This document shows, one piece after another, positions 9,211-28,836 of a stretch of DNA of 28,836 nucleotides. This DNA is from a virus. A model generated the notes under the pieces. The model was not told the DNA's origin, did not search any database, and saw only the letters and a program-made list of their open reading frames with translations. The translations under genes were made by a program, and so were the position numbers. The stretch covers positions 1 through 28,836 of the IMG/VR virus record IMGVR_UViG_3300028277_000015, one strand, 5' to 3'. Position 1 is the first letter of the stretch, and each line of letters starts with the position of its first letter.

Positions 9211-10335
9211 TTATTTAATTTTGGATTCAATTATATTGAGAACTTGTTCTATTGATTTTTGATTAATATTTTCACATATATCATAAAAATCCCCGCTTAT
9301 TATATGGTTATAATTGTGCATTGATGATTTTCTAGTTCCATCAAACAGTTCTTCTTTGGACATATTTGCGAATTGTTTTATTAAATTTACAATTCCCAGC
9401 AAGCGATCATGATCCCCTATAATAGAGTCAAACGAGGTATCAAAGTTATAATTGAATTCAAATCCTAACTGAGTTAAGTGTCCGTATGTATCAAATTGCC
9501 CAACTGGTACAAAAGCTGTTTGCCCTAATAAACACTTCAATGTTTTTTCGGTAATATATGGACCAGGGTGTTGATAATCTCCGATATGGTTGGAAATATC
9601 ACTATAATGAAAACTTTCGTTAGTGAAATGTATGGCACATTCTTGCAATGCAGGTATGTTTGGATTAGCAGTAAATTTATTGTTATTATCAGTTATATTG
9701 CTAAAATTATCAACTTTGTATGTTGTTCCAAAATATTTTTCAAAGAAGATATCAGATAATTCTCTTATACTAACAGGAACATCATCGGTTGCAGAGAATG
9801 CATTAGACTGTTCGAACCATCCATGTAATGCATTTGCACTGTCATTGAATCCTATATATTCTGCAATTGCCGTGAACACTATTAACTTAGAATCTGTAAT
9901 CCTATTACAGAATGCACTTGCCTTTTTTGATATATTTTTATCATATATATATGGATTGAACCATAGAATCATTTTATCTAATTGATAATGCCATGTGTAA
10001 TAGGATATGAATGTAATACCAGGAATTGTGTAGTTATAAAATTTCCCATCGTGAAGTACAATGATGGGTGTCTTTATATTATCCGATTGCCTGTGCAACC
10101 ATACAAGGTTAATTTGTTCATAGTGGAAGCTCACTATATAGAACTCGTATCCGAGTGGTAGGTCTTCTTCATCTGCCCAAGCTCCTAATATCAATGATAG
10201 ATGAATTCTTCGGTTGGGTAATTTTTTCACCCAATCATATCCAATAACATCAAATGTAGGTGGTAACTGTTCTGTACTGCCCGTGTATGCATTAGAATCT
10301 AGCATTGCTATGCTACGGTTGGTATCGTATATCAT
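9211..10335 (-). CDS. Glycosyltransferase-like protein with ITEKT motif
   Basis: A 374-residue cytosolic protein. The C-terminal half contains PALQECAIHFTNESFHYS, then GPYITEKTLKCLLGQTAFV and a segment ending in GFEFNYNFDTSFDSIIGD and HDRLLGIVNLIKQF. Phage, giant-virus and bacterial proteins with an (I/V)TEKT-x-K-x-L-x-G-x-(P/A)-F core followed by L-G-F and a D-x-R-x-x-x-I helix resemble fucosyltransferase-like GT-B C-terminal domains. That suggests sugar transfer, but the substrate is unknown. It starts at the stop of the radical SAM gene (one-base TAATG overlap), implying coupled expression and perhaps a shared pathway. No capsid leader is present. Confidence 0.5.
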   Translation of the reverse strand: MIYDTNRSIAMLDSNAYTGSTEQLPPTFDVIGYDWVKKLPNRRIHLSLILGAWADEEDLPLGYEFYIVSFHYEQINLVWLHRQSDNIKTPIIVLHDGKFYNYTIPGITFISYYTWHYQLDKMILWFNPYIYDKNISKKASAFCNRITDSKLIVFTAIAEYIGFNDSANALHGWFEQSNAFSATDDVPVSIRELSDIFFEKYFGTTYKVDNFSNITDNNNKFTANPNIPALQECAIHFTNESFHYSDISNHIGDYQHPGPYITEKTLKCLLGQTAFVPVGQFDTYGHLTQLGFEFNYNFDTSFDSIIGDHDRLLGIVNLIKQFANMSKEELFDGTRKSSMHNYNHIISGDFYDICENINQKSIEQVLNIIESKIK

Positions 10336-11513
10336 TATTGAAACCTAATGCTAAGGTTAATATTCGGATTTATTTGATTGCGGATCTCGTCTAATTTTTT
10401 ACTAAAAGCAGAGACTGCAATAAATGATATATTTGGTTCTTGGTTTAACTGATTTATCACTAGGTTTTTTATATGTTGTGGCAGATTGATTGTTCTGTAT
10501 CTTTTTATTATGGTATCTTTGTATTCTTGTGGTAAATTCCGTATATCTAATTCTTGCGGAATAATGCATAGATTGTACATTACAGCATCCTGTTTTATGC
10601 CTTGATCTATTAACCAATTATGAAGAACATCTAATCTATCTACATTGTGAATATTGATTAATGTAGATATTTTTATATCCCACCCGTATTTTTCACCTTC
10701 TGTTACATAATATGTTAGGTTTTTTTCAATGTCGTTCCATTTACTGCCATATCGAAAATAATCATTGTCTGTGCCATATCCATCAATGCTTATGAATAAA
10801 ATTAGCTTCTTGATACATTTCCATAATTCTAGGGTTTCATTTTTGGGCAATATTGACCCGTTGGTAAAATATTGTAATACTTTATTAGATGAGTAATCTT
10901 TGATTTCAGTCGTCAATTGGTCACTCTGCTTCATATAAAATGGTTCACCACCGTACATAGTAATAACATCTATATCATTGAAGTTTAATTCATACCATGA
11001 TAAATCTGGATTTTGCAATGAATGGGGGTTAATACCCAATTTTCCTTCATCTTTCCTCCATTTTGTACTCAATAAACTATAACAACCTCGGCATGCTAAA
11101 TTGCATACATTAGATCCATGTAATGCAATCCATCTTAGTGTTATCGGTGTATCTTTGAATATTTCTAACCAGTCTAGGTCGTTTGTTGCATCATACGAGG
11201 ATGAATCGCTGTCTTCTTTCCACGGTAAGATGGTATTGTTATTTAAATATTCATTAAACCAATTGTTCAATAACAATCGTTGACTAGCATGGCTTAATGA
11301 TTCTTCGTGGTAACATTTCTCGCATCCTTCAATGAATTCCCCATCTCGCATATCTTGTCTAATGCCATCCATTTTATCGGAATGTATTATGTCATTGATT
11401 GAATTGTTATTTAAATTGCCTAATGGGATAGACTTTCGACTACACAGATGAACATCCCCATTGGGTTTTATATGTGTGTGTATCCATGGAAGAATACAAA
11501 AAGTTTTATTCAT
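10335..11513 (-). CDS. Radical SAM protein with N-terminal auxiliary-cluster region
   Basis: A 392-residue protein. The radical SAM core carries SNVCNLACRGCYS (C137, C141, C144; CxxxCxxC), which binds the 4Fe-4S cluster that cleaves S-adenosylmethionine, and the MYGGEPFY motif near residue 190. Unusually, SPASM/twitch-like cysteines come first: C6 (CILPW), C24 after NGDVHLC, and C64/C67 (EGCEKCY). The N-terminal auxiliary region followed by the core recalls phage 'twitch' radical SAM proteins. Substrate is unknown. It overlaps the ITEKT glycosyltransferase-like gene by one base, so the two may modify a common target. No capsid leader. A GATAAATA sequence lies five bases before the ATG. Confidence 0.8.
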   Translation of the reverse strand: MNKTFCILPWIHTHIKPNGDVHLCSRKSIPLGNLNNNSINDIIHSDKMDGIRQDMRDGEFIEGCEKCYHEESLSHASQRLLLNNWFNEYLNNNTILPWKEDSDSSSYDATNDLDWLEIFKDTPITLRWIALHGSNVCNLACRGCYSLLSTKWRKDEGKLGINPHSLQNPDLSWYELNFNDIDVITMYGGEPFYMKQSDQLTTEIKDYSSNKVLQYFTNGSILPKNETLELWKCIKKLILFISIDGYGTDNDYFRYGSKWNDIEKNLTYYVTEGEKYGWDIKISTLINIHNVDRLDVLHNWLIDQGIKQDAVMYNLCIIPQELDIRNLPQEYKDTIIKRYRTINLPQHIKNLVINQLNQEPNISFIAVSAFSKKLDEIRNQINPNINLSIRFQ

Positions 11514-14393: not shown

Positions 14394-15347
14394 TTAATAT
14401 AAACTATTTATTAAATCATCAAGGTCATCGCTAGATTCAGTAGATGGTGTGTTTAATGATGGTCTGTGTTGTTCGATCGAACCCAAATCTTCTTGATTTG
14501 ATACTTCGTTGCGATCCCATTGTTGTAACTTATTTGTATCTTTATGTTCCCACGAGTAGATATAATCCCCATGATCATCTTTTACGAATTTATAATATTG
14601 CCCAGCTAATTCCCAAATGGATATAGTTGGTTTATATCCTGGCATTGTATCACCGAAATCAATTTCTGCTTCTTCTACTACTGGTGACCCATAATTTTTA
14701 ACCATTCCAGCTACTGCATCTAACTCTTCCTGATCATTGGTCATGGATGATACTGTATCTATATCTTCATCTGCCATTTCACCAAATGCATGGAATACCT
14801 GTCGTCCCATATTACGGATCATTTGTTTTGCATACCCTGGCAACTGTGTTAAATTGGTCCATTCAATATTATTGACATATTGTACCATATCTTGGGGTAT
14901 AGTTGCAAGGTCTGATGACTGTTTAACCGCTGGTAAATTACTTGCTATTTGCGGTGGGGTATCAGTACCAACCGTTGTTGCCTGTGCTGTATGCTGTGTT
15001 ATTTGCGGTGCGGTTGCATCTAAATCTCCCCAATCATCATCGGTTGCACTAGCTGGAATATCACCGATTGTATAATTGGGATTACCTCTTGGTGCTCTAA
15101 TGTTTGGCGCTGTAGTTCTACGTCTGGGTCTGCCAATCTTCTCTGCATTAGGTGTATTGTCCTGCGCAGAGATATCATGAAACTCTGTGTCCCGAAATAA
15201 ATTATCCAAATCAGGTGTTTTGGTTTTGGTTTTGGTTTGGGTCTTTGTTTCATCATCTTCTAATAATGTTATCCACCGATTATACGAACGATGAATATGA
15301 TCTTCTGATAAGATATTGATGTAACTTCTAAGTTGTGTTGTTTCCAT
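14394..15347 (-). CDS. Leader-tagged, largely disordered acidic protein
   Basis: A 317-residue protein beginning METTQLRSYINILSE/DHIHRS, whose Leu-x-Glu at residues 13-15 resembles a prohead-protease site in a longer leader. Residues 33-43 are TKTQTKTKTKT, encoded by a short GGTTTT-type repeat. Residues about 50-160 are rich in D, T, P, Q and A and look disordered. The last 150 residues are more folded (SIWELAGQYYKFVKDDHGD, YIYSWEHKDTNKLQQW) but not recognised. A candidate internal head protein by leader and context only. Confidence 0.5.
   Translation of the reverse strand: METTQLRSYINILSEDHIHRSYNRWITLLEDDETKTQTKTKTKTPDLDNLFRDTEFHDISAQDNTPNAEKIGRPRRRTTAPNIRAPRGNPNYTIGDIPASATDDDWGDLDATAPQITQHTAQATTVGTDTPPQIASNLPAVKQSSDLATIPQDMVQYVNNIEWTNLTQLPGYAKQMIRNMGRQVFHAFGEMADEDIDTVSSMTNDQEELDAVAGMVKNYGSPVVEEAEIDFGDTMPGYKPTISIWELAGQYYKFVKDDHGDYIYSWEHKDTNKLQQWDRNEVSNQEDLGSIEQHRPSLNTPSTESSDDLDDLINSLY
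14405..14412 (-). promoter_or_regulatory. Candidate T4-type late promoter box (AATAAATA)
   Basis: AATAAATA on the minus strand, embedded in the final codons of gene 14394-15347, ends 26 nt before the ATG of the WCT-motif gene at 14378, with an AGGAT ribosome site between. Same geometry as the boxes at 7401 and 7812. The sequence is AT-rich enough that chance is a real alternative. Confidence 0.35.
15218..15241. repeat. Short GGTTTT microsatellite inside a gene
   Basis: The plus strand holds consecutive TTTTGG units, encoding the TKTQTKTKTKT stretch of the disordered protein at 14394-15347. Such tracts are prone to length change by slippage in units that keep the reading frame here. Confidence 0.6.
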
Positions 15348-17461: not shown

Positions 17462-18219
17462 TTAATTCTTCTCCCATAGCGATCATACTCATTGGCTTTT
17501 ATATATTCTACTTTATGCATGATTTGCCCATTCTCAACTACTGCGGTATGCCTCTCATCCCCGAATATCCGGCGAATGCCAATCCTCTCTAATATATATT
17601 CTGCAATTGAATGCTTGTCATAATCAATGGCATCGTAGTTGTTAGTTCGGGATGGAAGATCTTCTCTGAGAATGAACGAAAATATATAATCTAAATTGGC
17701 AACAGAATATAGGTGTGGTTCAAATGTCGCATCATAATCCCCATCTTCCACATTTAATCTTTGCGCAGCATTAATTAAATCATCCCGTGTTATATCAAAC
17801 GTATCACTTAGGACGGAGTGCATTGCATTGACATCATCGTTATATTCGGCATACGAGGGGGCATTTTCCCAGTCAATATTACCCTCGTCATCTACTATAC
17901 CTTCATCCGTTAAGTAATCGAGAAAACCCACATCATTTATTTCCCACTCAGCAGTTTGTTCAAATACAAATTCAAGGGCGAGATTTTTCATATCTGCCAA
18001 TAACTCATCAAGCAACTCATCAGACACAAATGGTAAATAAGCTGTCCAACTTTCTGTTGGGAAGGTGTCTGGGCGTAACCGAGCAAGTATTTCCCTCGTT
18101 GCACTGCTAGCAAATCCTAGTTCAATCAACGTATCATCGTCAAATAATTCATCTACTCCCAATGCTTCTTCATAGCCATATAATGTCTCTGGGTTTGAAT
18201 GTTTGCTGTATAAATTCAT
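17458..18219 (-). CDS. NPETLYGY-leader acidic protein of unknown function
   Basis: A 253-residue, strongly acidic protein with leader MNLYSKHSNPETLYGY followed by EEALGVDELFDDDTLIEL. Further segments include SDELLDELLADMKNLALEF, EWEINDVGFLDYLTDEG and a basic C-terminus (IRRIFGDERHTAVVENGQ, NEYDRYGRRIK). Predicted mainly helical with no cysteine or recognised active site. The leader links it to five other proteins with unrelated bodies. ATGA overlaps on both sides place it in one translational unit with the GNAT-Nudix gene and the seven-repeat gene. Confidence 0.55.
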   Translation of the reverse strand: MNLYSKHSNPETLYGYEEALGVDELFDDDTLIELGFASSATREILARLRPDTFPTESWTAYLPFVSDELLDELLADMKNLALEFVFEQTAEWEINDVGFLDYLTDEGIVDDEGNIDWENAPSYAEYNDDVNAMHSVLSDTFDITRDDLINAAQRLNVEDGDYDATFEPHLYSVANLDYIFSFILREDLPSRTNNYDAIDYDKHSIAEYILERIGIRRIFGDERHTAVVENGQIMHKVEYIKANEYDRYGRRIK

Positions 18220-19310
18220 AAGTTACTCATTATCCTAAAAAATTCTGGCCGTTGCAATAATCCTACCAACCCAGGATGCATTGGATTCGGTAAATGTTTT
18301 AATGTAACCCAACTATAGCCCTGTGTTTCCCAATTTAATATTGGTGTAAATTCATCTTCTACTATTGCAATGTAATTATGATACTTGAACCCCGACTCAT
18401 GTTGGAATGTCCAAACATATCTAATATCAGTTAGACCATTATACCCTGCCTCTTCTTTTATCTCCCGTGCTACCGTCTGCATGGGCTTCTCCCCTGCATC
18501 CATTGCACCGCCCCACGTTCCCCATGTGCCTGGTTCTTCAACCATATTACTGCGATGTGCAATGAGATAACGATTAGTTGCCGTAGAATAGAATATACAC
18601 CCAGCTCCTTGTTTACCCCAAAATCCGGTGTTATTCAGCGCATTTATGTGGTCGGTCTCATCTTCACGCAGTGTCCCATCATCTGGCTTAGAACCCGGGG
18701 CAATGCCATGTTGATCTTTATAGAATAGTTCCCATACTTTTCGTGCCATCCCGTATCCCATTTCAGTCATTTGCCCGATCTGCATGTGTGGGTTTTCTTT
18801 CATGAACAGCTTTAGCAAGAATGACCCAATGCCAGACCCCTGGTAATCATCGCGCACCCATATCCCAATTGCACCGAATTCGTTGCTTGCTAGTGCGACA
18901 TATTCATCTCCGTGGAACGCAAATATAGTCTGGTCATATATAGCTAACCCCTTTTTCCGCATTTCGTTTCGTGTCATGTAAATGAGTTTGCCAGCCGAAT
19001 CCCTAGCTAGGTTACCAAACGCATCATCCGGTCCACTGTAGATCGTTTTGGTATATTTGTTTTCATCAATTGACTTTCTAAACTCTATCTTCTTGTCACC
19101 GAATGTCTTTTTGCCAACAACTTTGGGGTGCATGTGGTTGGTCTCTTTTTGCCACCTATCGGATTCTGGGTTTGACATTCCAGTGTACGTGCTGTCATCG
19201 ATGAACCCAGTATAATGATGGTCTATAAATTCTCTCTCGGACATGTCACCTGGGTGCTTGCCCCCAGCCCAGTTTTTGCTACCCTCGGCTAATATATCGT
19301 TAATTTTCAT
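18216..19310 (-). CDS. Leader-tagged GNAT acetyltransferase-Nudix hydrolase fusion
   Basis: A 364-residue two-domain enzyme. Residues about 70-200 form a GNAT-like domain with acetyl-CoA motif A in IGIWVRDDYQGSGIGSFLL (Q157-G-S-G-I-G162). Residues about 230-364 form a Nudix domain with a complete Nudix box G268-x5-E274-x7-R282-E-I-K-E-E-A-G-Y290, which binds divalent metal and hydrolyses nucleoside-diphosphate-X compounds. The N-terminus MKINDILAE/GSKN is a close T4 gp21-like site (Leu-x-Glu before Gly). Fusion plus leader suggests an enzyme delivered to the host, acting on nucleotides, NAD-type cofactors, RNA ends or an acetylated target; the substrate cannot be told from sequence. Coupled by overlaps to both neighbours. 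Confidence 0.75.
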   Translation of the reverse strand: MKINDILAEGSKNWAGGKHPGDMSEREFIDHHYTGFIDDSTYTGMSNPESDRWQKETNHMHPKVVGKKTFGDKKIEFRKSIDENKYTKTIYSGPDDAFGNLARDSAGKLIYMTRNEMRKKGLAIYDQTIFAFHGDEYVALASNEFGAIGIWVRDDYQGSGIGSFLLKLFMKENPHMQIGQMTEMGYGMARKVWELFYKDQHGIAPGSKPDDGTLREDETDHINALNNTGFWGKQGAGCIFYSTATNRYLIAHRSNMVEEPGTWGTWGGAMDAGEKPMQTVAREIKEEAGYNGLTDIRYVWTFQHESGFKYHNYIAIVEDEFTPILNWETQGYSWVTLKHLPNPMHPGLVGLLQRPEFFRIMSNL

Positions 19311-20170: not shown

Positions 20171-21181
20171 TTATTTAAATGTAAAACATGCGTTGCAAGA
20201 TGGATGAGTCCATTCGGAATCATTTTGCCAACTATCCATTAGTTGATGGGTGTAAAATTCACTATTGAATATCTCATCAATAGTGTGTTTGTTGATATTA
20301 ATAGATTCTGGGTCTTTTAATATATTAAGCCACATTTGTGATGGAATATCAGCATTATTATCCATATATGGTGCTGTTTGGCAACATGGCAGTAGATATC
20401 CCTGATGATTTACGAACCATTCTTCTCTGATGAACGCAAAACAGTTTTCATATTTATTAGCGTGTGGGGTTGCCATTGTAATATCTACATCAGTTTTGGA
20501 TATGTTGTATTCATTGTCGTAACGGCAGAGATTATCTGATTTGCTAGCCTGTTCTATGTCGTACAGATATTCCCCCTTCACTCTGACAGGCCATGTATTC
20601 CCTTGAAACCATGAGCGGTCAGTGTATACTGTTGTGAATTCACCAAAACCTAAATCTACCGATAATTTTCTAGCCTGTTCTACTTGATGTTCATTGTGCT
20701 TAAATACTATAAACTGCCATGTTGCATTTCCCCCAGCATTTATAAATGCTTTAGCATTTTCCATTATTTTATTATAGTTACTATTGATCCGGTATATCTC
20801 GTTGGTATCTTCAAGACCATCAATAGCAAACATCACGGTTAGATTTTCAAATCCTCCAAGTTCTTCCCACCACTTGGGTGTTCGCATACTACCATTGGTT
20901 GAGATTAAATACCTATAATTCTTAAAAAATTCTATCCAATCTTTGATGTCAGGATGCAACATAGCATCACCATAAGTTGGTACATTTCTAATGTCGCGGA
21001 GGTTTGGTAAACTGTCAAAATTAATATTATGTTTGATAGTTTCAAGGTCCATATGTGTCATTTCAATGGTTTTGATTAGATCACCATTAAAATCATACCG
21101 CTTACATTGTGGACAATGTAGATTACAATATGTAGTGATGTCAAAATTTAGAGTATATATTAGGTCAGATGCAATGTTCAT
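20171..21181 (-). CDS. Radical SAM protein with SPASM-like C-terminus
   Basis: A 336-residue protein. FDITTYCNLHCPQCKRY holds the CxxxCxxC core (C19, C23, C26) and PTYGDAMLHPD the second conserved segment; LISTNGSM matches a core strand. The C-terminal part has additional cysteines (NLCRY, ENCFAFI, LLPCCQTAPY, SCNACF), consistent with an auxiliary Fe-S cluster of SPASM/twitch type. Members modify peptides, sugars or cofactors; the substrate here is unknown. It is distinct from the gene at 10335-11513, which has its auxiliary cysteines at the N-terminus. Starts in a TAATG overlap with the beta-rich protein. No leader. Confidence 0.8.
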   Translation of the reverse strand: MNIASDLIYTLNFDITTYCNLHCPQCKRYDFNGDLIKTIEMTHMDLETIKHNINFDSLPNLRDIRNVPTYGDAMLHPDIKDWIEFFKNYRYLISTNGSMRTPKWWEELGGFENLTVMFAIDGLEDTNEIYRINSNYNKIMENAKAFINAGGNATWQFIVFKHNEHQVEQARKLSVDLGFGEFTTVYTDRSWFQGNTWPVRVKGEYLYDIEQASKSDNLCRYDNEYNISKTDVDITMATPHANKYENCFAFIREEWFVNHQGYLLPCCQTAPYMDNNADIPSQMWLNILKDPESININKHTIDEIFNSEFYTHQLMDSWQNDSEWTHPSCNACFTFK

Positions 21182-21637: not shown

Positions 21638-21814
21638 TTACCAATCGCCTGTCTGTTTTTCAATTTCAACCATAACATTAGGCCCTGTCATCTCAGAAAT
21701 AATTGCAGTTAAATCTAATAATGTCTGGTCTGGTAACAACTCAACATCATCTTCGTTATTTCGTCGTAGTTTACTCACGCTAATTGCTATCTTAGCTTCA
21801 TTTAATCTAGCCAT
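21638..21814 (-). CDS. 58-residue phage protein of unknown function
   Basis: A short frame with ATG at 812-814 past 21000 and TAA at 21638-21640: MARLNEAKIAISVSKLRRNN, then EDDVELLPDQTLLDLTAIIS and EMTGPNVMVEIEKQTGDW. The composition, the ClpA-stop overlap (8 bp) and tight spacing to the next start all support a real gene. Similar small proteins (a basic 'AKIAITVSKLVR' helix, an acidic segment, then a 'TGPxVxVEIE' strand) occur in T4-like phages near structural genes, without known function. Confidence 0.65.
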   Translation of the reverse strand: MARLNEAKIAISVSKLRRNNEDDVELLPDQTLLDLTAIISEMTGPNVMVEIEKQTGDW

Positions 21815-24116
21815 TGTTCTCTTCCTTGGGTTTAAATTGTGTTAATACGATAACACCATCTTTGTCTATTTCTGGTTGTATATCCACTGGTAATTCAGCT
21901 GTTTCAACAACATCAGGCATAATCTCAAATTCAATTTCATCATTTAAAATGATATTAATATTGCAATTTGTAATATCATCAAATAATAATTTTTGACTTA
22001 GTGGCACTCGGATTAGTTCATCAATTTTTCTACTGATCGGTCTTGCCCCCATCTTGCTATCATACCCAATTTCGGCTATATGAGAGATGACGCTTTCATT
22101 TACCATCAGTTTTATGTTGCGATCAGCCAATGATTCTTTTAGTTCATTGATGAATTTAACAACCACTTTCTTAATACTCAATGTATCTAATTTGGTGAAT
22201 TTGATTATTTTATCAATTCTGTTTCGTAGTTCTGGCTTGAAGAATTCTTTAACCGCATCATCTTCTTCCCCTGTTTTCTCCAACGATTGTGCGAAACCAA
22301 TGTTATTTGCTTCATTGGCTTGTGCACCTAAGTTTGAGGTTAGAATTATAATGCTATTATTAATTTTGACAGATTTCCCTGAACTACTAGTTATTTTACC
22401 TTCATCTAACATTTGTAGCAGAATGTTACTCACATCTGGATGTGCTTTTTCAATCTCATCAAATAAGATAATGCTGTATGGGTTTTTACTAAGATCAGAT
22501 ATTAGTTTCCCACCCCCAAGGCTACTATCTTCGTAGCCGACATATCCCGGTGGTGGACCAATTAGACTGCTTACAGTGTGTTTCTCTTGGTACTCACTCA
22601 TGTCATACCGTAGTAATTCCATATCAAGGTGTGTGCTTAATAATTTAGAAATGGCAGTTTTTCCAGTTCCCGTGGGACCCAATAGAAGGAAACTAGCAAC
22701 TGGTTTATCTTTCTTGCTGATTCCACTAAATCCAACATATACCCGATTTAGCATTTCATCAACCGCATTATCTTGTCCATACAGCTTATCTTTGATATTA
22801 CTATCAAGGTTCTTCAACTTGGCAGAAGTTTCGTTGGTTAATCGTTCTGCTGGTATATTAGTTAGTTTAGCCACTTGGTCAATGATTCTTTGTTTGGTAA
22901 TATGTGTTCCTTCATTTGCTTTAGCACGTTGTTTAGCACAAGCAGCATCCACCAAATCGATGCATTTATCAGGGTTCTTGCGATCATGCATATAGCGATT
23001 ACTTAGATCAATGGCATTAATAATTGCATCTTCATCAATCTTAACCTTGTGGTATTCTTCCAAACGCTTACTAACCCCTGTAAGAATCTTCACATTAGTA
23101 TCATAATCAGGTTCCTCAATGACTAATTTATAGAACCTTCGCATTAATGCACGATCTTTCTCAAAGGTTTCGTAATATTCTTCCCATGTAGTGCTTGCAA
23201 CAACTTTTAGTGTTCCTTTAGTAATGGCCGGCTTTAACATACTAGCTAAGTCTGGCCCACCTTTGCCCGTACTACCTGCACCTGACATTGTATGTGCCTC
23301 ATCAATAAACAAAATCGTATTCTCTAATGATTCCAATGACTTGATGATATCTTTGAATTTTTCCTCAAAATCCCCGCGATATTTGCTACCAGCAACGATG
23401 TCACTAACCTCCAAACTCCATACCGTATGGTCGGCAATAAATTCTGGACAATTATCAGATTCAATTAATTGGGATAATCCTTCTACAATAGCGGTTTTGC
23501 CTACACCCGGATCCCCTACCATTAATACATTGCTTTTGAATTTTTTAGCCAATACATCTATGGCATCGGTAATCTCGATGGATCTGCCAATCAGTGGTTC
23601 TAATTTTTCATCTCTTGCCAATTCGTTGAGATTAGTGCAGTGTTTATTAAGAATATCCATCGCTTGATCATCGGATAGTACTACATCGTCCTCTGAGTAA
23701 TGCGTATTCCAGAATGCAGTAAACTCATCACGATTCATTCCATACTTTAATAAGAAGTATGATGCATGACTATTTGTTTCACTAGTTATACTTAAATATA
23801 TGTCTATTGTAGTTACATAGCGTCTGCCTGTAAATAGAACTTGAGTCACCGCACGGTTAAATACTCGTTCCAATGCATTGGTTCGTTTGGGTGGTTCTGA
23901 ACTAGTGGATATATTCCCCACATCTTCTAAATATGCATCTAATTCTACATCTAGTGCTTCAACTTCTATTCCGTATTCGATTAGGCATTTGTTAAATGGT
24001 TCATATCGTATTAATGCTAGCAATAGATGTTCCAATAATACATATTCGTTGTTTTTCTGCTTGGCTATAGATATAGCATAATCTGTTATCTGTTCAATTT
24101 CAGGATTTGTTTGCAT
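21807..24116 (-). CDS. clpA: ClpA-like AAA+ unfoldase
   Basis: A 769-residue class I Clp/Hsp100 ATPase, close to the ClpA length. Residues 1-140 form the Clp N-domain. Ring 1 has Walker A GDPGVGKT (201-208) and Walker B ILFIDEAH; ring 2 has Walker A GPTGTGKT (480-487), MSEYQEKHTVSSLIGPPPGY and Walker B IILFDEIEKAHPDV. The segment between the rings is short, so there is no ClpB M-domain. Residues 606-608 are IGF in the place where ClpA has the IGL ClpP-docking loop, so docking to ClpP is possible. No ClpP is in this window; a host ClpP is the likely partner. Start overlaps the upstream gene by 17 bp and lacks an obvious Shine-Dalgarno. Confidence 0.9.
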   Translation of the reverse strand: MQTNPEIEQITDYAISIAKQKNNEYVLLEHLLLALIRYEPFNKCLIEYGIEVEALDVELDAYLEDVGNISTSSEPPKRTNALERVFNRAVTQVLFTGRRYVTTIDIYLSITSETNSHASYFLLKYGMNRDEFTAFWNTHYSEDDVVLSDDQAMDILNKHCTNLNELARDEKLEPLIGRSIEITDAIDVLAKKFKSNVLMVGDPGVGKTAIVEGLSQLIESDNCPEFIADHTVWSLEVSDIVAGSKYRGDFEEKFKDIIKSLESLENTILFIDEAHTMSGAGSTGKGGPDLASMLKPAITKGTLKVVASTTWEEYYETFEKDRALMRRFYKLVIEEPDYDTNVKILTGVSKRLEEYHKVKIDEDAIINAIDLSNRYMHDRKNPDKCIDLVDAACAKQRAKANEGTHITKQRIIDQVAKLTNIPAERLTNETSAKLKNLDSNIKDKLYGQDNAVDEMLNRVYVGFSGISKKDKPVASFLLLGPTGTGKTAISKLLSTHLDMELLRYDMSEYQEKHTVSSLIGPPPGYVGYEDSSLGGGKLISDLSKNPYSIILFDEIEKAHPDVSNILLQMLDEGKITSSSGKSVKINNSIIILTSNLGAQANEANNIGFAQSLEKTGEEDDAVKEFFKPELRNRIDKIIKFTKLDTLSIKKVVVKFINELKESLADRNIKLMVNESVISHIAEIGYDSKMGARPISRKIDELIRVPLSQKLLFDDITNCNINIILNDEIEFEIMPDVVETAELPVDIQPEIDKDGVIVLTQFKPKEENNG

Positions 24117-24513
24117 TTTTTGTAGTTCTCTGTTTTGTTATTTTCTTCTTCTTGGCTACTTTCTTCTTGGTTGGAGCTTTTCTAGTGCCTTGAAGTAATT
24201 TAATTTTGGATCGGATTTCATCCAAATTATCGTTGATATTTACTAGTTGTGTATTGCCTATATAATCTTGGTATTGTATTTCCAATATGTTATCTTCATC
24301 ATTTAATACGATGGGATTAAACAAATATGTAGGGTGTTGATTTGTAACTATTATAGACATATCAACCCCTACTTCGGGTGCTGTGATTGTAGTTCTATCA
24401 TCATTGACCATACATATAGACATTTTAACTGCTATTTTTTGGTTATCTATTGGTTTTACAAAAGTGCATTTTTTTGCTTTTTTCTTTAGTGGGTTTTTAA
24501 TTATTTTTAACAT
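24100..24513 (-). CDS. Basic-ended protein between chaperone genes
   Basis: A 137-residue protein with lysine-rich ends (MLKIIKNPLKKKAKKCTF at the N-terminus; KKKVAKKKKITKQRTTKNA near the C-terminus) and a beta-rich middle (VGVDMSIIVTNQHPTYLF, NILEIQYQDYIGNTQLVNI). Not recognised. Its location between DnaJ-like and ClpA-like genes, with overlap into the latter, suggests a client, an adaptor or a nucleic-acid-binding partner, but the sequence does not say which. Confidence 0.5.
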   Translation of the reverse strand: MLKIIKNPLKKKAKKCTFVKPIDNQKIAVKMSICMVNDDRTTITAPEVGVDMSIIVTNQHPTYLFNPIVLNDEDNILEIQYQDYIGNTQLVNINDNLDEIRSKIKLLQGTRKAPTKKKVAKKKKITKQRTTKNANKS

Positions 24514-24519
24514 ATAAAA

Positions 24520-25257
24520 TTATTTAGTTTTAATCTTTCTAATCTCCGTAATTATTGATTCAGGAATATCAGCAGGTAATTCGGGTTGCAATAATACAAA
24601 CATATCACCAGTTGTGTGTTGTGATTTTAACCCATGCTCTTTTAATCGCAATATTGTTCCTGGTGCAGATTTTGGTGAGATGGATACATTAAGTTCCTGT
24701 TCATAAATATCATACACTGAAATACTAGTGCCTAATATTAAATCCCAAAAGTCTATGTTAACTTTGGTAGTTAGGTTTAATCCTTTTCTTTCCCACATAG
24801 GATCAGGGTGGATTTTAAACTTAACAATCAAATCAACATCGTTAGGTTGTGGATATTTAATCGCATCCCCGTCATTTATAGTGGGTGGTATGACAATTTC
24901 TGCGGTAACACCATTCTGTAATTGTATCAGTTTCTTCTCATTGGATGCTAATTCTTGTAATGTGACTACTAGCACTGCTTGTACTGATACTCTTCTATAA
25001 CTAAATGGTTGAGTGAACATATCATGAAAATTGCCTGAATGTGCGTGAATATAACCGGACCCCCTATTGGATTGGTGATATTCTTGTCTAGCATTTGCAT
25101 TTTTAATTGTAGCATATGCCGTTGATATTTCTTGGAATATAGTATCATCCCCACCCTTATCTGGGTGATGTTTCATGGATAGTTTTTTGTAGGCTTTCTT
25201 AATATCAGCATCAGATGCTGTTTCGGGAACACCTAGTATTTTAAATGGGGTTTGCAT
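24520..25257 (-). CDS. dnaJ: DnaJ/CbpA-type J-domain co-chaperone
   Basis: A 245-residue protein. Residues 1-65 form a J-domain (FKILGVPETASDADIKKAYK, then KLSMKHHPDKGGD) with the HPD tripeptide at 31-33 that stimulates DnaK ATPase. There are no CxxCxGxG zinc repeats and only a short Gly-rich linker, so it is class II (CbpA-like). Residues about 90-240 match the DnaJ C-terminal substrate-binding domain (VTAEIVIPPTINDGDAIKY, DLILGTSISVYDIY, GTILRLKEHGL). With the ClpA-like gene it forms a phage chaperone module that would use the host DnaK. The ATG has no clear Shine-Dalgarno; the ClpA-like gene also starts ATGCAAAC. Confidence 0.88.
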   Translation of the reverse strand: MQTPFKILGVPETASDADIKKAYKKLSMKHHPDKGGDDTIFQEISTAYATIKNANARQEYHQSNRGSGYIHAHSGNFHDMFTQPFSYRRVSVQAVLVVTLQELASNEKKLIQLQNGVTAEIVIPPTINDGDAIKYPQPNDVDLIVKFKIHPDPMWERKGLNLTTKVNIDFWDLILGTSISVYDIYEQELNVSISPKSAPGTILRLKEHGLKSQHTTGDMFVLLQPELPADIPESIITEIRKIKTK

Positions 25258-26474: not shown

Positions 26475-27090
26475 ACGCTTTTTTAACCTCTTTGTCTAAC
26501 CAATGTTCTTCTATATATTTAATGTATTTTTTATTAGCATTGGTATTACATAAATCATTAGCAACTTTGTGATTATTTATCGTAGGAAACCCAAATAATT
26601 TACTCAAATAACCCATATACCTATGTCCATGCAATGACAAACTCTCATGCGAGATAAAATGGTATGGTATGCCTGTATGATCAATGTTCCGCAATTCATC
26701 CATAAACATATGCAGTGTAGATTCCCCACGAACTCTAGTTTGTTGGGCTTCTAGTATATTTTTATCCCGTGTGATAATGCCTAATTGTACATCTATACCT
26801 AACTTAGTTGCTTGGTTATAAAAATCAACTATATTTGGTATTTGAGTTGTGTTGTTATGCACATACGGAATTGATATTGAAGTTACCCAATAATCAAACC
26901 CTTTAAGGTCGTCTAATGCAAGAACTCGACCACCATTCCATATTTCAATGAACGGTTCGGTATGATGACCAAGCCAATAGGTGTCTGTTAATTCTCCCCA
27001 TCCACCTACCATTGAACTATGTAAGAAACATTTGGTAAATAGATGGTTTCCAGATCCCTGTGGACCAGTGAGAATTAACAGTTTTTTCAT
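26446..27090 (-). CDS. P-loop sulfotransferase-like protein
   Basis: A 214-residue protein beginning MKKLLILTGPQGSGNHLFTK. GPQGSGNH is a modified P-loop of the sulfotransferase-like type (the final K-[ST] of Walker A is replaced by N-H). Later segments GIDVQLGIITRDKNILEAQQ, TRVRGESTLHMFMDEL and LSKLFGFPTI follow a family found in marine phages and cyanobacteria, usually annotated as P-loop or sulfotransferase-like. If it uses PAPS, the APS-kinase-like gene two genes downstream could supply the donor. It starts in a TAATG overlap with tctC. Confidence 0.5.
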   Translation of the reverse strand: MKKLLILTGPQGSGNHLFTKCFLHSSMVGGWGELTDTYWLGHHTEPFIEIWNGGRVLALDDLKGFDYWVTSISIPYVHNNTTQIPNIVDFYNQATKLGIDVQLGIITRDKNILEAQQTRVRGESTLHMFMDELRNIDHTGIPYHFISHESLSLHGHRYMGYLSKLFGFPTINNHKVANDLCNTNANKKYIKYIEEHWLDKEVKKACEESSITNS

Positions 27091-28259
27091 TAGTTGATAT
27101 TGAGTAACTCAGTAAACCAATTTCCTGCACTTCCTGATGACCTAACAGGTACGATGAAACTATTAGAATCTGCTAGATCAGCAACCAGCTCTGCTTTGTA
27201 GATAGACTTCAACCCAAGAGCTTCCTGATTAAACTTGACTAATGCTTGCAGTGGCTTATCCTTAATAAGACCCATTAGAATATCAATAGTTTTATTCCCA
27301 TCTTCACCTACTATCCAATCATATTTTCCAATCTTCTTGTGGAAAACCTTAATTGATTCTGGGTTATTAGCCATTTGTTCACACGCCTGACGATACTTGG
27401 CTGTGTTTGGATTGCCCTTGTTAACCCACATTGCCTTTTGAATAGCATCACGCCACGAATGAATCATACTATATGCATCATATAAATCGCCCGATGGTGC
27501 TACACCCCACTTAGCTTCAAATACATCCTCAAATCGCTTGCCGAGATAATTTGGATCATCTATTGTTCCACCACCATTGGCAATATCTAATATACCATGA
27601 TGTAACCAAGTTTCAACCTTGCCAGCATCTACCAATGGTTGGATCTTTGAAATATATTGTGCTGGATTAGCACGGGATGCAGTAACTTCGCCGCGAGTGA
27701 ATGCTAAGTGGCGTTCTGACCCGTTTAACCCATTAATCCATGATACTTTGTCATTGAAAATATCAATATATTCCTGTGTTGTTTTATATGGTCCGCCAAT
27801 CATCATGGCAATTGCAAGACCTTCTGGAACCATCCCAGAACCTGCAATATGTGAAATCCCTTCGTCTTCGTTAACACCTACATGCTTGCCCATAATAATG
27901 TTTAGATTCTGATGACATACACTATCGTATGCGGTGTAATCATATTTTACATTTTCTTGCACATATGAAATACCATTCCCACCATGTGATACCATAATCA
28001 CATTGTCTTTAAAACGTTCTGTTTTGTGAAATTTATTTGGACCAGCCATGTCACGAACACCTGGATTATATGTAATCACTACATTTTCACCATTTAGTGC
28101 TGGTGCTTTAGCAAATTCCTTCGCTATAATCTCAGTCCATACAGATGTACCAGAACCTGGCTTCTGCGGGGACATTAAAATAATATCCGACATTGCGGTG
28201 CCAGAAAAAATGACACCTGTGGCTACTGCCATACTCTTTACTAATTTAGAAACTTTCAT
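27090..28259 (-). CDS. tctC: TctC-family tricarboxylate-binding periplasmic protein
   Basis: A 389-residue protein with a Sec signal peptide (MKVSKLVKSMAVATGVIFSG then TAMS/D): basic start, hydrophobic core and small residues before the cut. The mature protein has an LMSPQKPGSGTSVWTEIIAK strand-helix start like TctC proteins (a P-x-x-x-G-x-x-D/W-x-x-A pattern), then MVSHGGNGISYV and a domain of alternating Rossmann-like strands. TctC members capture carboxylates in the periplasm for TctAB permeases; cellular ones are about 320 residues, so this is long. RBS AAGGAT is well placed. Being next to tctA supports the call. In a phage it would be an auxiliary metabolic gene acting on the infected cell. 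Confidence 0.8.
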   Translation of the reverse strand: MKVSKLVKSMAVATGVIFSGTAMSDIILMSPQKPGSGTSVWTEIIAKEFAKAPALNGENVVITYNPGVRDMAGPNKFHKTERFKDNVIMVSHGGNGISYVQENVKYDYTAYDSVCHQNLNIIMGKHVGVNEDEGISHIAGSGMVPEGLAIAMMIGGPYKTTQEYIDIFNDKVSWINGLNGSERHLAFTRGEVTASRANPAQYISKIQPLVDAGKVETWLHHGILDIANGGGTIDDPNYLGKRFEDVFEAKWGVAPSGDLYDAYSMIHSWRDAIQKAMWVNKGNPNTAKYRQACEQMANNPESIKVFHKKIGKYDWIVGEDGNKTIDILMGLIKDKPLQALVKFNQEALGLKSIYKAELVADLADSNSFIVPVRSSGSAGNWFTELLNIN

Positions 28260-28287
28260 TGTTGTTATATCCTTCTAATAATATGCC

Positions 28288-28836
28288 TTACGCATAATCA
28301 ACTTTACCTCTATTTCTCCAACCCCATACTAATACGAACATTGTTAAAACAAAGGTTACCATAAACACTGGATGTTCGAGTAAATCCTTCCCTTCACCCA
28401 GTGCAAACCTGATTTTCCCACTACCAACTGGCTTATCTGTAAAAAATTCAGACAATTTAATTAGTGGGTAACCACCTACATTAAACATTTGGAAGAACTG
28501 ATATGAAAGCATTTCAATCTTGTCACCAAGAATAAATCCAATCATTAACGCAGGTCTACTAAACATCCAATTTTTCATTGCTAAACCAAATAGTGTAAAC
28601 ACACCTAGTAAAGCAACATTTTCCCAACCGTATGTACTAAACCCTGATGTGTATGTTGCCCATACAATAAAGGCTAATAATATTGGAAAATAAAACTTAT
28701 ACGGCACATATGCAATCATTGTGATATATCGCATTAGATATAAACATATAATACCGGTAATTAATGTCGCACTTAAAAACCCAAAGCTAAGTGAATTAAA
28801 AAATAATCCATCACCCATTATACTTTGTGAATCAAG
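28288..28836 (-). CDS. tctA: TctA-like tricarboxylate transporter permease (C-terminal part)
   Basis: The frame is open to the right edge: six codons precede the ATG at 28818 without a stop, so the gene continues outside. The visible 182 residues hold about four hydrophobic segments (LSFGFLSATLITGIICLYL, FYFPILLAFIVWATYTSG, NVALLGVFTLFGLAM, FMVTFVLTMFVLVWGW) and SRPALMIGFILGDKIEM, matching the TctA C-terminal G-x-x-x-G-x-x-x-E stretch (cellular TctA is about 500 residues). Its stop is 28 bp from the tctC start. TctB, the small second membrane subunit, is not in the visible part; it may lie upstream. Confidence 0.75.
   Translation of the reverse strand, partial: LDSQSIMGDGLFFNSLSFGFLSATLITGIICLYLMRYITMIAYVPYKFYFPILLAFIVWATYTSGFSTYGWENVALLGVFTLFGLAMKNWMFSRPALMIGFILGDKIEMLSYQFFQMFNVGGYPLIKLSEFFTDKPVGSGKIRFALGEGKDLLEHPVFMVTFVLTMFVLVWGWRNRGKVDYA

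Follow-up and report, generated by a model that had tools for sequence, protein, structure and literature searches.

A TctA–TctC pair of the tripartite tricarboxylate transporter type, without TctB, in large tailed phages known from environmental sequence

A two-gene importer of the tripartite tricarboxylate transporter (TTT, TC 2.A.80) type is encoded by many large tailed phages whose only record is environmental sequence. Its genes stand in the order tctA–tctC with sound reading frames, encode a permease of the TctA family and a binding protein of the TctC fold, have evolved under purifying selection and have diverged together, and they lack a TctB partner. The DNA analysed here (the window) is the whole of a linear IMG/VR virus record of 28,836 bp, at one end of which such a pair is found. 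We consider it likely that this pair represents an old TTT branch, specific to viruses and built of two components, that imports an organic anion.

The pair in the window

The earlier note on this DNA had described a TctA permease gene adjoining tctC, in the order A then C, with a gap of 28 bp and with no TctB in view. All of this is borne out, coordinates included (Table 1). The tctA frame is open up to the contig edge and matches the last 86 profile positions (338–423) of PF01970; its score of 27.3 bits lies just below the Pfam cut-off of 28.9 because the gene is a fragment. The encoded fragment is 68% identical to the full-length viral TctA of a relative, L002 (alignment A2), and places inside the viral TctA clade. 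The tctC-like frame runs from ATG to TAA without internal stops, and its stop codon shares bases with the start of the next open reading frame (TAATG).

Table 1. Positions of the tctA–tctC pair, its sequence elements and the neighbouring gene block in the window
Feature	Position	Strand	Basis or remark
DnaJ, deformylase-like and ClpA-type AAA+ block	21807..25257	minus	context of tctC
Peptide-deformylase-like protein, 137 aa, sub-threshold	24100-24513	minus	between DnaJ and ClpA-type genes
tctC-like periplasmic solute-binding protein, complete, 389 aa	27090..28259	minus	fold matches and profile comparison
Ligand 'pincer' loop PQKPGSGTS, residues 31-39	28143..28169	minus	HMM alignment to BugD and MatC
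Sec signal peptide, residues 1-24, predicted cleavage AMS/D	28188..28259	minus	heuristic scan and conservation in relatives
tctA–tctC gap, 28 bp	28260..28287	minus	tctA stop to tctC ATG, read from sequence
AGAAGGA, Shine-Dalgarno-like stretch	28270-28276	minus	within the tctA–tctC gap, read from sequence
tctA permease, last 182 codons	28288..28836	minus	PF01970 E 1.8e-6; 5' part beyond contig end

The same note had called the neighbouring product a TctC solute-binding protein with a clear Sec-type signal, and this too is upheld, the signal by a heuristic scan. The N-terminus has a lysine-rich start, a hydrophobic stretch (best 10-residue Kyte–Doolittle mean 1.93) and a cleavage-type motif at residues 22–25; Ala at −1 and Asp at +1 of the predicted cleavage site are nearly invariant in 54 viral sequences. 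By sequence, the protein matched no TctC model in Pfam, PHROG or NCBIfam, and no TctC was reached among PDB sequences from the single protein or from a 10-row profile; a profile of 54 viral rows reached BugD (E 0.0098). An AlphaFold model made from those 54 sequences had a pLDDT of 89.3 and a pTM of 0.85, an earlier model from 10 sequences having been modest (pLDDT 69). When the better model was compared with the PDB by Foldseek, its 16 best matches were all TctC-family proteins (E 8.6e-10 to 2.6e-7; target TM-scores 0.59–0.68), with BugE, TBP, MatC, TphC, Bug27, AdpC, BugD and a Polaromonas TctC represented, and hhalign aligned viral TctC with cellular long-type TctC at 99.9% probability (E 2.9e-32, 26% identity). 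It is thus through predicted structure and profile comparison, with PF03401 giving no match, that the 389-aa protein is assigned to TctC. Surveys that depend on annotation by Pfam, PHROGs or NCBIfam, none of which detects phage TctC, therefore overlook half of the system.

In the TctC family, the proximal carboxylate of the ligand is gripped by a pincer loop with the motif PFxAGGxxD (review PMC5812351). The viral counterpart, PQKPG(S/G)GTS, aligns with this motif and keeps its proline and glycines, with Gln in place of Phe and Ser in place of Asp, and it is largely invariant among the 54 viral sequences. Hydroxyl residues substitute at such pincer positions in some Bug proteins (review PMC5812351). 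With the Phe and Asp of the family motif gone from the viral loop, its ligand may differ from a typical di- or tricarboxylate.

The block of DnaJ, deformylase-like and ClpA-like genes also lies 3' of tctC on a 250-kb contig that bears Gp23 (L006), where a 139-aa gene of similar size occupies the position matching the window's deformylase-like gene. Elsewhere in the window are two radical-SAM/SPASM proteins (10335-11513 and 20171-21181, minus strand) and a 364-aa protein (18216-19310, minus strand) in which a NUDIX domain at the C-terminus is preceded by a weak match to GNAT.

Viral relatives and neighbouring genes

A search with the window TctC as a single protein returned 11 viral relatives; alignment-based searches of IMG/VR returned about 320 TctC-like and 207 TctA-like stretches, and 80 of each were fetched. 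Both genes were present at 148 of the 156 fetched loci, and at 147 of these tctA lay upstream of tctC on the same strand. The remaining eight loci, with one gene each, were all cut by contig ends. The sole locus with both genes on opposite strands, in convergent arrangement, was on a 359-kb viral contig (L107). Spacing between the genes was usually −8 to +29 bp, with one to three genes intervening at some loci, and most relatives have a complete tctA frame just upstream of tctC.

Viral TctA matches PF01970 with a best E of 7.9e-98, and eight of nine members match at E ≤ 0.001. The duplicated motif G-Hy3-G-Hy3-G-Hy2-P-G-Hy-G was found in both TM1 and TM7 in 72 of 73 complete viral TctA proteins, A or S being allowed for the G after P, and GIPG in all 73; the window fragment, from the 3' end of the gene, lacks both helices. 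The complete proteins end at 473–535 aa without a fused TctB part. Nor was a separate TctB (PF07331) found in 40 viral records at E ≤ 0.1; the same model detected TctB in 55 of 147 SAR11-order (Pelagibacterales) genomes. As many of the viral records are fragments, the absence of TctB is firm beside tctAC and less so genome-wide. The viral system therefore has the TctA permease, the TM1/TM7 motif and the TctC fold of the TTT family and lacks TctB, separate or fused, for which reason we call it TTT-type rather than a full tripartite system.

Across close pairs of tctC genes the median dN/dS was 0.088 (25 pairs; 0.092 for the window and L002), with dS saturated in several comparisons. Distances between TctA proteins and between TctC proteins were correlated over 73 loci (r = 0.88), a value reached in none of 2000 permutations; because shared phage ancestry contributes to it, this correlation shows joint inheritance and not physical contact.

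That the pair is phage-encoded, and not the product of a contig joining host and phage DNA, had been left as a condition by the earlier note, and the wider sampling supports the phage reading: the pair occurs in about 90 non-redundant viral loci, some with terminase or gp23. Terminase was found in 6 of 41 viral records and T4-type Gp23 in 7 of 40, contigs of 250–344 kb being among them, and at one locus (L030/G014) the pair is close to the terminase gene. Genes for PhoH, a clamp loader, DNA polymerase, lysozyme and Hsp20-like proteins were seen near the pair by inspection, in part confirmed by models. Of the features expected of an auxiliary metabolic gene, occurrence in bona fide phage genomes under selection is thus present (terminase/gp23 records; dN/dS 0.09). 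No close relatives of the pair were found among INPHARED phages; weak TctA matches there (26–30%) looked like bacterial contamination and were set aside.

Three kinds of gene recur beside the pair. A 2OG/Fe(II)-oxygenase-like protein is encoded within 1.5 kb at 28 of 88 loci; it has ~220-250 aa and lies beside or between tctA and tctC (L103:5334-5996, L031:7271-7972, L120:9440-10153 and others). An HxD…H…R pattern (HID...PH...R) is invariant in this neighbour, to which Pfam (below cut-offs) and PDB matches were weak, and it is probably, judging from these residues, a 2OG-Fe(II) oxygenase. No profile match to it was obtained in the window. A small membrane protein of ~76 aa, DUF6552 (PF20189), is encoded within 1.5 kb of the pair at 25 of 88 loci, and directly 3' of tctC in about a quarter of loci (L057:9050-9268, L101:11173-11412 and others). 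Homology of DUF6552 to TctB was rejected (hhalign 0.1%), and the protein could instead be a TctB analogue; its one profile match in the window (E 0.0012, plus strand, 15024–15197) was taken as noise. A protein with the motif FFTGxPGSxWSG is encoded near tctAC at 48 of 94 loci (L154:6750-7286, L002:7036-7605 and others), and the one member searched had no Pfam or PHROG match.

Cellular kin and origin

In trees that included cellular homologues, the viral proteins formed a single clade in each case, TctA (30 rows) with an SH-aLRT of 100 and a stem of 2.47 substitutions per site, and TctC (29 rows) with an SH-aLRT of 100 on a long stem. The nearest cellular kin in both trees were systems of the type tctC–tctAB fusion. 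These were quick trees, with no bootstrap and with long branches, so that they support kinship with the fusion group more firmly than any exact placement. A TctC phylogeny had been proposed earlier as a route to the donor; it was built and led to no such source, since TctA and TctC both form virus-only clades on long stems, which argues against any recent cellular donor. An identifiable or recent host origin, another feature of auxiliary metabolic genes, is accordingly absent.

About 700 cellular genomes were searched, 398 phylum-wide and 297 of the SAR11 order, and no close donor was found in either set; the pattern search of genome contigs covers viral-like peptides only, and the profile searches are the stronger test of absence. 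A GTDB scan yielded one relative of the viral family, on a short contig, and no other at that level among the 297 SAR11-order genomes. The sole cell-labelled members of the viral clade lie on a 7.9-kb contig of a Pelagibacter MAG (L160), which is probably a binned phage contig. This one MAG contig was the basis for considering SAR11 as the host, an assignment that we did not accept.

The best cellular TctA matches had E values of about 1e-75 to 1e-88, as against about 1e-50 for ordinary TctA, and most were 650–700 aa long. At the C-terminus they have a TctB-like part (hhalign 95%, E 3.8e-8; PF07331 5e-6 to 3e-4, below cut-off), which identifies them as TctA–TctB fusions, an arrangement reported in at least one species only (2018 review). 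The fusion genes usually lie 3' of tctC. The statement that cellular operons are commonly C-B-A thus applies to the classical systems and fails for the closest kin of the viral pair, in which tctC is followed by the fusion.

At four SAR11-order loci (L209, L211, L212 and L213), tctC and the TctA–TctB fusion lie near genes for 4-oxalomesaconate tautomerase (NF033377) and AcnA, and L212 also has TcuA (NF006130, E 7e-172). These clusters are likely to serve tricarballylate/aconitate uptake and use in SAR11, and their gene content points to a C6 tricarboxylate as substrate of the cellular systems. A tricarboxylate is a weak guess for the viral system, given the altered pincer loop and the low identity (about 26%).

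Function and comparison with known systems

The phage importer probably pulls organic acids into infected cells. From what is known of the family, TctC would be secreted, would use its two-loop pincer to capture a periplasmic solute that bears a carboxylate and would hand it to phage TctA for import by ion symport; TctA may work without TctB, borrow that of the host or use a small phage membrane protein. Carbon brought in this way could pass into the infected cell's TCA cycle (2-oxoglutarate, nucleotide precursors). In Comamonas, uptake by TpiBA required both membrane subunits (review PMC5812351), and a pair without TctB might therefore not transport alone. A bolder reading, slightly less likely than not, is of a virus-exclusive two-component TTT in which TctB has been dispensed with or replaced (for example by DUF6552); a single acquisition long ago would have been followed by its spread among large tailed phages, in many cases together with a linked 2OG/Fe(II)-oxygenase-like gene.

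The distribution of TctB, absent from the 40 viral records and present in 55 of the 147 Pelagibacterales genomes, would also suit a phage TctA that pairs with host TctB, or a phage binding protein that redirects host permeases, host import being altered without an independent transporter; one Pelagibacterales MAG holds both the phage pair, on the 7.9-kb contig, and a tctC-tctB-tctA set of its own (L216). We nevertheless think this unlikely, since the phage retains its own, co-diverging TctA and TctC, the nearest cellular kin have their TctB part fused to TctA and so offer no separate partner, and 92 of the 147 sampled genomes lack TctB by PF07331, the host assignment itself being weak. Still less probable is a change to the envelope rather than to nutrition, by superinfection exclusion at a host transporter that acts as receptor or by ligand sensing or chelation. 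Other bacteria have TctC proteins with no matching TctA, for which a part in signalling or chemotaxis has been suggested (review PMC5812351), but in the viral family the permease motifs persist in almost every member, the binding-protein fold and the pincer loop are retained as well, strong purifying selection acts on the pair (dN/dS from tctC pairs), and a search for receptor evidence found none. Contamination, with bacterial tct genes joined to phage DNA, would account for a contig end inside tctA and for the few window genes that match recognised phage families, but is scarcely credible for a pair that lies among phage genes on many independent contigs, near terminase and with Gp23, and is nearly absent from cellular genomes.

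A permease and a binding protein are here retained as a pair, under strong constraint, by a large group of uncultivated phages, in a lineage hardly seen in cells. A working importer would give the infected cell a separate route of uptake, and the pair would then be a natural test of whether TctB is needed.

A tctA gene, identified by domain match only, was noted on SUP05 viral contigs (Roux 2014, PMC4164917) and again in a 2019 review, and a 2020 paper places a tricarboxylate-transport gene near viral norB/nirK (PMC8115048). The passages of PMC4164917 and PMC8115048 that deal with these genes mention a TctA-type gene in passing and do not describe a binding protein, the pairing, the lack of TctB, a virus-only clade or its breadth. 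A literature search, covering few subscription journals and preprints, found no published description of the pair, its TctC partner or the missing TctB. Phage-borne TTT-type uptake genes are thus an already known kind, and the virus-only bipartite variant with an unrecognised binding protein appears to be new.

The cellular long-type TTT of SAR11 and other Pseudomonadota shares with the phage system a binding protein of ~350 aa and a Trp after the pincer loop. It differs in having the order C then A with a fused TctB-like part, whereas the phage order is A-C with no TctB part, and in having a TctC, about 26% identical to the viral protein, that retains PF...D in the pincer loop and is set in catabolic clusters. 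The classical systems (Salmonella TctCBA, Bordetella BctCBA and Comamonas TphC/TpiBA) likewise combine a TctA permease with a binding protein of the TctC fold; they have three components, commonly in the order C-B-A, whereas the phage has two genes in the order A-C and a TctC below PF03401 detection. As a rule, a phage uptake gene adds a single component to a transporter of the host; PstS is such a component, the binding protein of a host ABC transporter. Cyanophage pstS and the pair described here both supply a phage-encoded periplasmic component of uptake, but, unlike cyanophage pstS, the pair brings permease and binding protein together.
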